Below are positions 2,647-10,480 of a DNA stretch of 57,636 bases, one piece after another. A program made the position numbers and the translations under genes. Within the stretch, counting starts at the first letter, position 1. Each line of letters begins with the position of its first letter. Source of the DNA: an uncultured Bacilli bacterium. GTDB lineage: Bacteria; Bacillota_I; Bacilli_A; RF39; UBA660. The notes beneath the pieces are model-generated. The model did no database searches. It was not told the origin of the DNA and worked only from the letters and a program-made list of their open reading frames with translations. The stretch covers positions 1-57,636 of the forward strand of contig CALVJW010000005.1 of the NCBI GenBank assembly GCA_944332435.1, given 5' to 3'.

Positions 2647-2982
2647 TTGTTAGAAATTAATATGGAATTTCGAAAAGGAATATTATTTGTTAGACTTATT
2701 GGCAAATTAACAAAATATACGGTTTCTGTATTAGAAAAAGAAGTAACAAGAGTGGTAAAAGAGTATGGAATTGGAAATGTTGTATTTAATGTATCTGGTT
2801 TAACAGAACTAGATCAAGTAGGGATGCAAGCACTTATTCAAAATGGACATAATCATGGAAAACTTGTGATTTGTGGATTAGAACAAAAAGAAATGAAAAA
2901 ACAGATGAAAAAACAGCACATGTTTGATTATTTAATGGAAGTGAGTGATGAACTAAGTGCGTTACATTATTTAGAAAGGTAG
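2647..2982 (+). CDS. spoIIAA: SpoIIAA-like anti-sigma-F factor antagonist (atypical, no phospho-Ser)
   Basis: A 111-residue STAS-domain protein. The TTG start at 2647 is supported by AGAGGGTGAT at 2635-2644. It aligns with Bacillus SpoIIAA over the whole length: FVRLIGKL, VVFNVSGLTELD, and a C-terminal helix after VICG. In B. subtilis the STAS loop reads MDSSG and Ser58 is the residue phosphorylated by SpoIIAB; here the loop reads LDQVG, with Gln57 and Val58 in place of both serines, so the usual switch residue is absent. The next gene, sigF, begins 3 nt after the stop; spoIIAB, which normally lies between them, is missing. The identification rests on fold plus synteny; the mechanism must differ from the Bacillus partner switch. 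Confidence 0.8.
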   Translation: MLEINMEFRKGILFVRLIGKLTKYTVSVLEKEVTRVVKEYGIGNVVFNVSGLTELDQVGMQALIQNGHNHGKLVICGLEQKEMKKQMKKQHMFDYLMEVSDELSALHYLER

Positions 2983-2985
2983 AAA

Positions 2986-3657
2986 ATGATGAAAGAGAGT
3001 TTAGAACAATTAATTGTAGAAAATGCCAATTTAATTTATAAAATAGCGAATATGTTTCGTAATAGTAATTGTGATATGGATGATTTAAAACAAGTTGGGA
3101 AAATGGGATTTATTGAAGCTTATCAACATTTTGATTCTAGTCATGGGGTAAAATTTACAACTTATGCTTATCCTTACATTTATGGAGCTATTAGCAAATA
3201 TGTAAGAGAAAATAAAGGCTTAAAAATTAGTAGAGAATTAACGAAACTATATTACAAAATAGAAAAAGCTTCTCTATTACTTACACAAAGGTTTTTTCGA
3301 GAACCGACAACATTAGAATTAGCGAATGAATTAAATTTACCGGAAGATATCATTATTGAAGCATTATTGTCAAAAAATACCATTCATAGTATTGATGAAC
3401 CAGTAGGTAAAAAAGATAAAGAATTAACATTACATGAAGTAATTCAAGATCCAGTTATCATTGATATTGATGATCATATGATGTTAGAAGAAGCGTTACA
3501 GTATTTAACAGAAGAAGAATATGCATTAGTAGAAAATCGTTACATAAAAGAACTAACGCAAAGTGAAGTAGCATCATTACTTCATACCAGTCAAGTACAA
3601 GTATCAAGAAAAGAACAGAAAGTAATGAAAAAATTAAGAAGTTATATGATGAGCTAA
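2986..3657 (+). CDS. sigF: RNA polymerase sporulation sigma factor, SigF type
   Basis: A 223-residue group 3 sigma-70 factor. Region 2 is near residues 28-85 (DDLKQVGKMGFIEAY, FTTYAYPYIYGAI), region 3 follows, and region 4.2 ends in a helix-turn-helix with SQVQVSRKEQKVMKKL. The SQVQVSR motif matches SigF rather than SigG, which usually has SQAQVSR. SigF directs the first forespore transcription programme. It is somewhat shorter than Bacillus SigF (255 aa). It is co-transcribed with spoIIAA and followed by spoVAC, as in Bacillus, where the spoIIA and spoVA operons adjoin. No anti-sigma gene is present in the window, so how it is held inactive in the predivisional cell is open. Confidence 0.85.
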   Translation: MMKESLEQLIVENANLIYKIANMFRNSNCDMDDLKQVGKMGFIEAYQHFDSSHGVKFTTYAYPYIYGAISKYVRENKGLKISRELTKLYYKIEKASLLLTQRFFREPTTLELANELNLPEDIIIEALLSKNTIHSIDEPVGKKDKELTLHEVIQDPVIIDIDDHMMLEEALQYLTEEEYALVENRYIKELTQSEVASLLHTSQVQVSRKEQKVMKKLRSYMMS

Positions 3658-4169: not shown

Positions 4170-5159
4170 ATGACATTTCGTTATAATAATGTTTATATTA
4201 ATGAAACAGGGACGGTTGCTGGTCCTTATGAAAAAAAAGGATTACTAAATAGTTATTTTGACAAAACGTATCAAGATTTTTATTTTGGAAAAACATCTTG
4301 GGAACAAGCAGAATCAAAATTAATAGAGGATAGTGTAGAAATTGTTTTAAATAAAATAGGAAAAACGAAATTTGATATAGATGTTCATATTTCCGGTGAT
4401 TTATTAAATCAAATTACGGCTTCTAATTATGCATCGTCTAATTTAAAAATACCTTATTTAGGAATTTATAGTGCTTGTGCGACAAGTGTAGAGGGACTGA
4501 TTATTGGTGCCAATATGATTGAAGCAAAACAAATTCAACATTGTATTTGTTCTACCTCTAGTCATAATAATGCTGCAGAAAAACAATTTCGTTATCCAGT
4601 TGAGTATGGTGGACCAAAACCGAAGACTACAACGTTTACAACTACTGGTGCCGCTAGTGCATATTTAACTTATCATAAATCTGGAATGAAAGTAGATAGT
4701 GCGACAATTGGAATTGTACAAGACTTAGGTATAAAAGATGTCTATCATATGGGTGCAGTAATGGCTCCTGCAGCAGCTGATACGATTTATCGTCATTTGC
4801 GTGATACGAAACGGGAAATTGGTTATTATGATTTGATTTTAACAGGAGATTTAGGAATTTATGGGAAACAAATCTTAAAAGATTATATGCAAACTGAGTA
4901 TAATATAGTATTAAAAAATTATGAGGATACAGCTTGTTTAATTTATGATCCTAATAATCATGAACATTATGCCGGTGGTAGTGGACCTGCTTGTGCTCCA
5001 TTAGTTACTTATAGTTATATTTTTGATAAAATGCGTAAAAAAGAATATCGCCGTGTTTTATTAGTTGCAACTGGTGCTTTAATGTCACCAACAATGGTAA
5101 ATCAAAAATTAACAATTCCTAGTATTGCTCATGCAATTAGTTTGGAGGTAGTTGAATGA
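4170..5159 (+). CDS. spoVAD: Stage V sporulation protein AD
   Basis: A 329-residue soluble protein with the thiolase-like fold of SpoVAD (Bacillus about 338 aa). The family hallmarks include YINETGTVAGPYEKKG near the N terminus, the IYSACATSVEGL segment corresponding to the thiolase nucleophile loop, and GGSGPACAPLV near residue 270. SpoVAD binds dipicolinic acid on the outer face of the inner spore membrane and delivers it to the SpoVA channel. The gene ends with TGA overlapping the ATG of spoVAE (ATGA), which shows both translational coupling and that TGA is a stop in this organism. RBS TTTGGAGG lies before the ATG. Confidence 0.95.
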   Translation: MTFRYNNVYINETGTVAGPYEKKGLLNSYFDKTYQDFYFGKTSWEQAESKLIEDSVEIVLNKIGKTKFDIDVHISGDLLNQITASNYASSNLKIPYLGIYSACATSVEGLIIGANMIEAKQIQHCICSTSSHNNAAEKQFRYPVEYGGPKPKTTTFTTTGAASAYLTYHKSGMKVDSATIGIVQDLGIKDVYHMGAVMAPAAADTIYRHLRDTKREIGYYDLILTGDLGIYGKQILKDYMQTEYNIVLKNYEDTACLIYDPNNHEHYAGGSGPACAPLVTYSYIFDKMRKKEYRRVLLVATGALMSPTMVNQKLTIPSIAHAISLEVVE

Positions 5160-5506
5160 TCTATGTAAACGCGTTTTTATTTTGTGGTATCATTTGTTTA
5201 ATTGGTCAAATTATCTTAGATAATACCAAGCTAACACCTGGTCATGTTACAACGATTTTTGTTTGTGTAGGTGCTTTTCTAGATTCTTTTGCTTTTTATG
5301 ACAAAATGATTCAATTATGTGGTGGTGGAGCTTTAGTTCCAATTACGAGTTTTGGACACTCTCTCATTCATGGTGCTTTAGATCAGGCTTCTGATTTAGG
5401 ATTTATCGGTCTTTTATCTGGAATATTTAGTTTAACATCTGTTGGAATTATTTCCGCTATCATCTTTTCCTTCTTTTTATCCCTTATATTTCAACCAAAA
5501 GACTAG
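5156..5506 (+). CDS. spoVAE: Stage V sporulation protein AE (AEB type)
   Basis: A 116-residue hydrophobic protein homologous to SpoVAEB and related to SpoVAC: ICLIGQIILD, ATGs of the ThrProGlyHis loop (LTPGHV), and VPITSFGHSLIHGA, the same loop as in SpoVAC. Four membrane segments are visible. It forms the third part of the minimal Ca-dipicolinate channel. It overlaps spoVAD by four bases and is followed at once by a terminator whose stem starts within the stop codon. Confidence 0.93.
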   Translation: MIYVNAFLFCGIICLIGQIILDNTKLTPGHVTTIFVCVGAFLDSFAFYDKMIQLCGGGALVPITSFGHSLIHGALDQASDLGFIGLLSGIFSLTSVGIISAIIFSFFLSLIFQPKD

Positions 5507-5575: not shown

Positions 5576-6973
5576 ATGAGAGTCAATATTACAACCGATT
5601 CTAGAAAGGTACAATCTGGTGATATTTTCGTTGCTGTAAAAGGATATACCGTAGATGGACATGACTTTATTGAAAAAGCAATTGCAAATGGTGCATCAAA
5701 AATTATCTGTAATCATGGTAGTTATGATGTGGAAACAATTGTGGTAGAAGATACATTAGGATATATGAGTACGTACTTAAAAGAACATTATGGTAAATAT
5801 TTAGAACAGATGAAATTAATCGCGATTACTGGTACAAATGGAAAAACAACAACTGCTTGTTTACTACATAATGCTCTAAATAGTATTGGACATAAATGTG
5901 CTTATATTGGAACAATTGGTTTTTATGTAGGAAAGAAAATCTGTGCTTTGAATAATACAACGCCTGCTTTAGATGACTTATATCGTTTATTTATGGATGC
6001 CTATGAAATGGGATGTGAATATCTTGTTATGGAAGTAAGTAGTCAAGGTCTAGCGAATCGTAGAGTAGAACAAATTCTTTATGATTATGCAGTATTTACG
6101 AATTTGACACAAGATCACTTAGATTTTCATAAAACAATGGGAAATTATGCACTAGCAAAACAGCAATTATTTAGACAATTAAAACCAGGTGGAAAGGCTC
6201 TAGTAAATGCTGATGACTCATTTAAACAATATTATTTGTTAGAAGAAAATGAAAACATTACCTATGGCTTACAAATGGGAGATTATAAAGCAGAAAATAT
6301 TCGTATGACACATCGTGGTTCTAGTTTTCGATTACGTACGAAAGACTTTTTAGAAACCATTGAAACACCATTGATTGGCAATTATAATATTTATAATGTT
6401 TTAGTAGTCATTGTATTATTATTACAACTAGGGTTATCAATCGAAGAAGTAAAAAATATTATCGTGAAATTGAAAGCCCCAGATGGTCGTATGGATACCG
6501 TTGCTTATGGTACCAATAGTATTATTGTTGATTATGCGCATACACCAGATGCGATTAAAAATTTATTGGATACAATGAAAGGTGTTGCAACTTCTCATAT
6601 TTATGCAGTATTTGGGTGCACTGGAGATCGGGATCGTTTAAAACGACCAATTATGACAAAAATGGTAACGGATATGGTAGATTATGCTATTATAACGATT
6701 GATGATCCACATAATGAAGATCCAAGACACGTTGTTTCAGATATGATAGAGGGATTAGATAATACCAATTACGAAGTAATTTTAAATCGTGGTAAAGCAA
6801 TCGAAAGAGGAATTGATTTACTAAAAGAAGAAGATATTCTACTTATTTTAGGAAAAGGACATGAAAGTGTTATTATTATGAAAGATAAAAAAATTCCTTT
6901 TAATGATAAAGAACATGTTATTCAATATATAAAAGAAAAAGAAGCTGTTTTTAGCAATTTGGAGGTGGATTAA
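5576..6973 (+). CDS. murE: UDP-MurNAc-tripeptide synthetase (MurE paralogue 1, non-DAP motif)
   Basis: A 465-residue Mur ligase: N-terminal domain with TTDSRKVQSGDIFVAVKG, ATP loop GTNGKTTTACLL near residues 85-96, the lysine expected to be carbamoylated in ALAKQQLF, and a C-terminal domain with DYAHTPDAIKN and GKGHE. MurE adds the third residue to UDP-MurNAc-L-Ala-D-Glu. The specificity motif near residue 377 reads DDPHNEDP; DNPR marks meso-DAP enzymes and DNPA the S. aureus lysine enzyme, so this one probably does not use DAP and may use lysine or another diamino acid. It has none of the MurT-type C-terminal features. RBS GGGAGAGG. It lies directly after the spoVA operon with its own promoter; the stop is followed at once by the next gene. 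Confidence 0.88.
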   Translation: MRVNITTDSRKVQSGDIFVAVKGYTVDGHDFIEKAIANGASKIICNHGSYDVETIVVEDTLGYMSTYLKEHYGKYLEQMKLIAITGTNGKTTTACLLHNALNSIGHKCAYIGTIGFYVGKKICALNNTTPALDDLYRLFMDAYEMGCEYLVMEVSSQGLANRRVEQILYDYAVFTNLTQDHLDFHKTMGNYALAKQQLFRQLKPGGKALVNADDSFKQYYLLEENENITYGLQMGDYKAENIRMTHRGSSFRLRTKDFLETIETPLIGNYNIYNVLVVIVLLLQLGLSIEEVKNIIVKLKAPDGRMDTVAYGTNSIIVDYAHTPDAIKNLLDTMKGVATSHIYAVFGCTGDRDRLKRPIMTKMVTDMVDYAIITIDDPHNEDPRHVVSDMIEGLDNTNYEVILNRGKAIERGIDLLKEEDILLILGKGHESVIIMKDKKIPFNDKEHVIQYIKEKEAVFSNLEVD

Positions 6974-9083: not shown

Positions 9084-9145
9084 CGAAAACAAAAAGTGGA
9101 GTATCAATCTATCATTTTTTACATAAGTTACTAGTGAGGTGGCTT

Positions 9146-10480
9146 ATGAAAATAAAATGTGACTCTAGAAAAGTAAAACCGGGAGATACTTTTGTTGCAA
9201 TAAAAGGGTTTTATAAAGATGGACATGATTATATTGAAGAAGCGATTGCGTCTGGAGCAAAAAAGGTTATAGCAGAACATGGATTATATTCTGTTGATAC
9301 TTTGATCGTAAAAGATACGAGAGAATATTTAGTTCAAACATTGAAAAAAGAGTATTATGATCAAATCAAAAAATTAAAATTAATTGGTATAACAGGGACA
9401 AATGGGAAAACAACAACTTGTTTCTTATTATATCAAGCATTAAAAAAAGCGGGTTATCAATGTGCTTATATTGGAACAATTGGATTTTATATTGATAAGA
9501 AAAGGAAAGATTTATTAAATACAACGCCGGATATTTTAGATTTGTATGAAATGTTAATAGAGTGTGAGAAAGAACAAGTCGAATATGTAATGATGGAAGT
9601 AAGTAGTCATGCACTTGATATGAACAGGGTTGGGGGATTAGAATTTGATTATGCAATTTTTAGTAATTTAACAAAAGATCATTTAGATTATCATTTAGAT
9701 ATGAAAAGTTATGCATTAGCAAAACAAAAATTATTTTATCAGTTAAAAAGAAATGGAAAAGCAATTGTAAATGTAGACGATGATTATAAGAATTTCTTTT
9801 TGGTTCATAATAATACTATTACTTATGGTCTAAAAGAAGGAGAGTATCAACTTACAGATTATAAGATGGATATTCACGGTAGTAAATTTATAATTAACAA
9901 TGAAAAGTATCAATCAAAATTGATTGGTAAACATAATTTGTATAATTTATTGGTTACCGTTATTATGTTAAAAGAGTTAAAAATTTCTAATATTGAACAG
10001 TTGATTTCTTCTTTAGAAGCACCAAAAGGAAGAATGGAAATGATTCCATATCATGATAATATTATTGTTGTAGATTATGCGCATACACCTGATGCAGTTG
10101 CCAATATGATTCAAGCATTTCAAGAAATAGAACATCAGCATATTTATACGATTATTGGTTGTGGCGGTAATCGAGATAAAACGAAAAGACCAATTATGGC
10201 AGATATCGCAACAAAATTATCTGATTATGTAATATTCACCAGTGATAATCCTAGAAATGAAGATCCAATGACAATTATTCAAGATATGATACAAAATTTA
10301 GACAGAAAAAATTATGAAATTGAAGAAAATCGTGCGATTGCTATTACTAAGGGTGTACAAAAGTGTGAAAAAAATGATATACTGTTAGTGCTTGGAAAGG
10401 GACATGAGGAGTATCAAATTATAAAAGAAAATAAAATACATTTTAGTGATCGAGAAATTATTGAGGATTTAATAAAGTAA
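9146..10480 (+). CDS. murE: UDP-MurNAc-tripeptide synthetase (MurE paralogue 2, DAP-type motif)
   Basis: A 444-residue Mur ligase. The start is the ATG at 9146 after GAGGTGG; a GTG at 9134 is part of the RBS region. It shows CDSRKVKPGDTFVAIKG at the N terminus, ATP loop GTNGKTTTCFLL, ALAKQKLF with the carbamoyl-lysine, DYAHTPDAVAN and LGKGHEEY. The specificity motif is DNPRNEDP, the signature of enzymes adding meso-diaminopimelate (Arg contacts the DAP carboxylate in E. coli MurE). It is clearly diverged from MurE1 at 5576. It is followed 13 bp later by mraY, as in dcw clusters. It is the surviving copy of the local duplication. Confidence 0.92.
   Translation: MKIKCDSRKVKPGDTFVAIKGFYKDGHDYIEEAIASGAKKVIAEHGLYSVDTLIVKDTREYLVQTLKKEYYDQIKKLKLIGITGTNGKTTTCFLLYQALKKAGYQCAYIGTIGFYIDKKRKDLLNTTPDILDLYEMLIECEKEQVEYVMMEVSSHALDMNRVGGLEFDYAIFSNLTKDHLDYHLDMKSYALAKQKLFYQLKRNGKAIVNVDDDYKNFFLVHNNTITYGLKEGEYQLTDYKMDIHGSKFIINNEKYQSKLIGKHNLYNLLVTVIMLKELKISNIEQLISSLEAPKGRMEMIPYHDNIIVVDYAHTPDAVANMIQAFQEIEHQHIYTIIGCGGNRDKTKRPIMADIATKLSDYVIFTSDNPRNEDPMTIIQDMIQNLDRKNYEIEENRAIAITKGVQKCEKNDILLVLGKGHEEYQIIKENKIHFSDREIIEDLIK

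Follow-up and report, generated by a model that had tools for sequence, protein, structure and literature searches.

Background

SpoIIAB and SpoIIE couple septation to sigma-F in model spore formers. The closest described system to the locus reported here is the sigma-F partner switch of the Bacillus subtilis spoIIA operon (SpoIIAA-SpoIIAB-SigF, with SpoIIE). The survey of Galperin et al. 2012 (PMC3533761) lists spoIIAA, spoIIAB and spoIIE as conserved in every spore former among the bacilli and clostridia then described, and the predictor SpoMAG found spoIIAB in 63/63 predicted spore formers and assigned RF39 a sporulation probability of 0%. That RF39 lacks spoIIAB and spoIIE was noted by Field et al. 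2024 (PMC10868615) in a single sentence; their inventory, in the part of the paper accessible to us, is a gene-presence table without an analysis of Ser58, selection on the STAS protein, the promoter or STAS loss. Single-domain STAS proteins likewise take part in gene regulation outside canonical sigma control, but the STAS-only systems covered in the accessible text of a review (PMC8256260) retain the conserved serine and a kinase partner, unlike the RF39 STAS protein. No paper on Ser58, the retained STAS or the sigF promoter in RF39 was found in the literature searched. The absence of spoIIAB and spoIIE was already known; what appears to be new is that Ser58 was lost with them, that STAS was retained, and the pattern of the promoter.

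The locus lies in a stretch of 57,636 nucleotides (the window; contig CALVJW010000005.1 of assembly GCA_944332435.1) from an uncultured bacterium of UBA660, a family within the order RF39 (PMC13155120). It shares with the B. subtilis system the STAS-sigF-spoVA order, the profile match of its STAS protein to SpoIIAA structures, an upstream Spo0A-type box and SpoIIR. It differs in being without SpoIIAB, SpoIIE and the phospho-serine, and in a STAS gene that several lineages seem to do without.

Organization of the locus and identity of its genes

The features of the locus in the window are the following.

2583-2592, + strand: Spo0A box TTTGTCGAAA, 10/10 match, 64 bp upstream of the STAS start
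2619-2624, + strand: probable -10 element (TGC-TAAATT), found repeatedly as TGTGCTAAATTA among relatives; recognized by eye, not scored
2647-2982, + strand: STAS gene (spoIIAA-like), TTG start, 111 amino acids, phospho-serine replaced by Gln57
2986-3657, + strand: sigF, 223 amino acids; SigBFG 177 bits, spore_sigF 168 bits
3726-4166, + strand: spoVAC, TIGR02838 172 bits (cut-off 164); syntenic neighbour fixing the identity of the locus
4170-5159, + strand: spoVAD, NF006160 415 bits (cut-off 402)
5156-5506, + strand: spoVAEb, TIGR02839 137 bits (cut-off 131)

The STAS open reading frame begins at a TTG that has a good ribosome site, ends in a stop codon at 2980-2982, and is separated by 3 nt (AAA) from the ATG of sigF at 2986. 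No open reading frame lies between the two genes and, as the original prediction held, spoIIAB is absent from the operon. The gene order is that of the B. subtilis spoIIA-spoVA region minus spoIIAB, spoVAA and spoVAB.

The sigma factor scored 168.5 bits against TIGR02885, below the cut-off of 321 bits, a value passed by 0 of the 247 genomes of the class sample. By its position, with spoVAC-spoVAD-spoVAEb downstream, the sigma gene of the window is SigF: it encodes an F/G/B-group sigma factor located between spoIIA and spoVA genes and distinct from SigG, which has a separate gene in the same genome (G000:C10).

The STAS domain of the upstream protein scored 37.9 bits, and its match to the SpoIIAA model TIGR02886 (27.3 bits) fell below the curated cut-off of 114.75 bits. 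A profile of 17 relatives matched best to SpoIIAA structures (1auz, 4.1e-20), and 1auz, 1th8 and 1tid outranked every other STAS protein. The gene was found directly upstream of sigF, at the head of an operon without spoIIAB, in 91 of the 101 family sigF loci read. The phosphorylatable Ser58 of the DSSG motif is missing, with Gln in the window. A second SpoIIAA with DSSG in the window's genome was rejected: the sole other STAS-like match is a 77-amino-acid frame without DSSG (L162, G000:C6, 3643-3876, minus strand; spore_II_AA 4e-4). Second STAS-like frames of 77-92 amino acids occur in 5 genomes (L162 of G000 and L158-L161 of G002, G017, G007 and G001), directly 5' of yqfC and yqfD in 4 of them; the fifth, L160, is incomplete.

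Absence of SpoIIAB and SpoIIE

The search for SpoIIAB had to be order-wide because the window's genome is 66% complete, which makes its own negative result insufficient. At 1e-13, SpoIIAB was found in 0 of 193 RF39 genomes (180 of high quality); sigF was present in 182 of the 193, and 11 were without a sigF match. The same model detected SpoIIAB in 49/247 genomes of the class sample at 1e-20. Outside the family, 49 genomes gave a sigma-F/G-type match better than 1e-60, and 47 of them carried SpoIIAB, as counted by hand from the search tables; the two exceptions were genomes 55% and 87% complete. A SpoIIAB hidden elsewhere in the window's genome was also considered and rejected, as its GHKL matches are histidine kinases, with the H box in frames of 422-428 amino acids. 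SpoIIE was found in 0/25 family genomes, the search returning just two weak 60-residue matches in 251-amino-acid frames, and in 5/5 SpoIIAB-positive relatives of the class.

One could still suppose that spoIIAB was overlooked because of assembly gaps or extreme divergence, as the incompleteness of the window's genome might suggest, or that the STAS-sigF pair is merely a second copy. We give this explanation next to no probability. The model that finds SpoIIAB in the class finds none in the order, the intact STAS-sigF junction was read in 91 loci, and a second copy is disfavoured because the other sigma-F/G-type gene is SigG. The missing spoIIAB is neither an assembly gap nor the sign of a diverged STAS-sigF copy, and the RF39 locus is a real, order-wide variant of the known system.

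Loss of Ser58 and altered constraint in the STAS protein

The loop L-D56-Q57-V58-G59 of the window aligns with D57-S58-S59-G60 of SpoIIAA and, therefore, Gln57 occupies the position of the lost phospho-serine, in agreement with what had been predicted. In SpoIIAA proteins encoded beside spoIIAB in other Bacilli, this residue is Ser in 25/25. In contrast, the same column in 91 RF39 STAS proteins holds 15 residue types, with Ser in only 8/91 (E 15, N 14, I 8, M 7, L 7, Q 6, K 5, T 5, A 5, D 4, V 3 and others). The flanking Asp57 and Gly60 are retained in 75 and 73 of the 91, respectively. When all columns were ranked by gain of entropy between the 25 SpoIIAA and the 91 RF39 proteins, Ser58 came first; Arg67, Phe55, Gly62, Glu21 and Ser59 followed, mostly in the neighbourhood of Ser58 and the helix after it. 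Conversely, Gly11, Arg16, Glu7, Glu102 and Lys10, which vary in SpoIIAA, are near-invariant or strongly favoured in RF39. Either a new surface for contacts or salt bridges within the protein, e.g., an E7-R16-E102 network, may account for these tightened residues.

The dN/dS of STAS was about 0.03-0.2 in most close pairs and 0.051 between the window and its congener, values low enough to indicate that the protein is under purifying selection and is not decaying. As far as the sequences tell, spoIIAB, spoIIE and the Ser58 acceptor are lost together across RF39. The original prediction had proposed that kinase gene and target residue went missing together; this part stands and now extends to SpoIIE, but the loss characterizes RF39 as a whole rather than one genome.

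A conserved Spo0A box precedes the operon

Allowing up to 1 mismatch, the TTTGTCGAAA box was present within 200 bp upstream of STAS in 82 of 91 loci (35 exact), where dinucleotide shuffles gave a chance expectation of 4.3 loci. Most of these boxes are on the + strand at -57 to -73. SpoIIAB-positive Bacilli have such a box within the same span in 15/25 cases, at scattered positions. The sequence that follows the box in the window is TGCTAAATT. At loci without an adjacent STAS gene, the box stands before sigF itself in 8/10, and a Spo0A gene was found in 23/25 family genomes. The box is an observed feature, and from it we infer Spo0A control of the sigma-F operon. Another sequence, TGAATAAA, was considered as a sigma-F-type promoter before spoIIR; it recurs, as judged by eye, and often overlaps the upstream stop codon, and is not claimed as such.

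SpoIIR was detected in 24/25 family genomes; the exception, G006, was also without a SigF-grade match. These data bear on the idea that the sporulation programme is decaying, with sigF and STAS left over from a pathway that has been lost. RF39 genomes are small and several of their sporulation genes are reduced, according to the accessible part of PMC10868615, and there are the 11 genomes without a sigF match. However, sigF, Spo0A and SpoIIR are retained in nearly all genomes, G006 lacks SpoIIR and sigF together, as a working unit would predict, dN/dS is low and the Spo0A box is conserved almost base for base. Decay therefore seems very unlikely.

Lineages that lost STAS and kept sigF

STAS is absent altogether from 9 of the 10 genomes without an adjacent STAS gene. 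In the tenth, G002 (L168, G002:C28), STAS and sigF are separated by metK, and both have a Spo0A-like box of their own. The SigF tree, in which many branches are weak and G002 was scored as without STAS, implied nine changes of STAS presence. STAS would thus be dispensable in several lineages, and the possibility that it is an obligatory inhibitor of sigma-F is weakened by those that kept sigF without it. For the same reason, direct binding by the STAS protein, one of the alternatives raised in the original prediction, is disfavoured as the only lock on sigma-F.

A broader form of this idea is that STAS acts as a direct anti-sigma-F, or as a co-factor; it would bind SigF until a signal other than dephosphorylation freed it once the septum had formed. 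Its tight packing against sigF in 91/101 loci, the purifying selection, and the relaxation of SpoIIAB-facing positions together with the tightening of E7, G11, R16 and E102 are in its favour, but the approximately nine changes of STAS presence with sigF kept speak against it. An AlphaFold2 model of a STAS-SigF fusion through the stop codon, a computational docking probe that makes no claim of read-through, showed no confident docking (pTM 0.37) with a shallow alignment and a 2-residue linker; a fold search with this model returned sigma factors at low TM. We consider this explanation rather unlikely.

Proposed control of sigma-F

Sigma-F control in RF39 must differ from that of known spore formers because kinase, phosphatase and phosphorylated serine were lost together. 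With spoIIAB, spoIIE and the Ser58 acceptor gone, the phospho-switch is, at the level of sequence, lost. STAS and sigF would be expressed from one promoter with a near-consensus Spo0A box, such that sigma-F production would track Spo0A~P. The STAS protein would no longer be a substrate or antagonist of SpoIIAB, and purifying selection maintains it with another set of invariant residues. The coupling in one operon suggests that STAS most likely serves as an accessory that needs no phosphorylation and contacts sigma-F or the holoenzyme. The level of sigma-F set by Spo0A would be the primary control, with STAS merely tuning sigma-F, since the promoter-sigF unit persists in several lineages from which STAS has gone. 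This reading, a spoIIA operon that outlived its phospho-switch, with a Spo0A-set sigma-F level and an accessory STAS, is in our judgment about evenly poised between right and wrong.

Timing of transcription had also been suggested as the means of keeping sigma-F inactive. The Spo0A box before the operon agrees with this suggestion, but timing alone leaves compartment specificity unexplained because in known species Spo0A is active ahead of septation. To our knowledge, sporulation has not been observed in the order RF39. We propose, tentatively and with the balance leaning against it, that RF39 forms endospores in which sigma-F is confined to one compartment by means unlike phospho-partner switching, the former anti-anti-sigma factor having turned into a regulator that acts on sigma-F directly.

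A further possibility, in line with the other anti-sigma factor considered in the original prediction, is that an unrelated, unrecognized and perhaps small anti-sigma factor encoded elsewhere replaced SpoIIAB, with STAS a relic or serving the replacement. The order-wide loss of the phospho-switch, with sigma-F kept and the downstream signal SpoIIR intact, would fit such a replacement, but no candidate emerged, the GHKL matches of the window's genome being histidine kinases, and we regard it as improbable. A search for Gin/CsfB as the replacement gave no match, with the controls equally silent.

RF39 has Spo0A, sigma-F, SpoIIR and SigG (one genome checked) without the phospho-switch, a natural test of the minimal needs for starting compartment-specific gene expression, and its STAS is a protein that has outlived its own kinase. 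Predictors that lean on spoIIAB, such as SpoMAG, may misjudge this order.

Neighbouring genes

Just upstream of the operon, at 763-2536 of the window, a gene for a PadR regulator overlaps that of a 494-amino-acid membrane protein with a HAAS domain. The HAAS-type frame is retained in the congener, and the upstream genes differ in other genera. A large frame, of which about 350 amino acids can be read and which has a hydrophobic stretch at its C-terminal end, lies 5' of STAS at L004, L005, L009, L010, L018 and L019, and the large frames upstream of STAS in several genera look related by eye. Two murE homologues, both far above the murE cut-off, are found less than 4 kb apart at 5576-6973 and 9134-10480 of the window.
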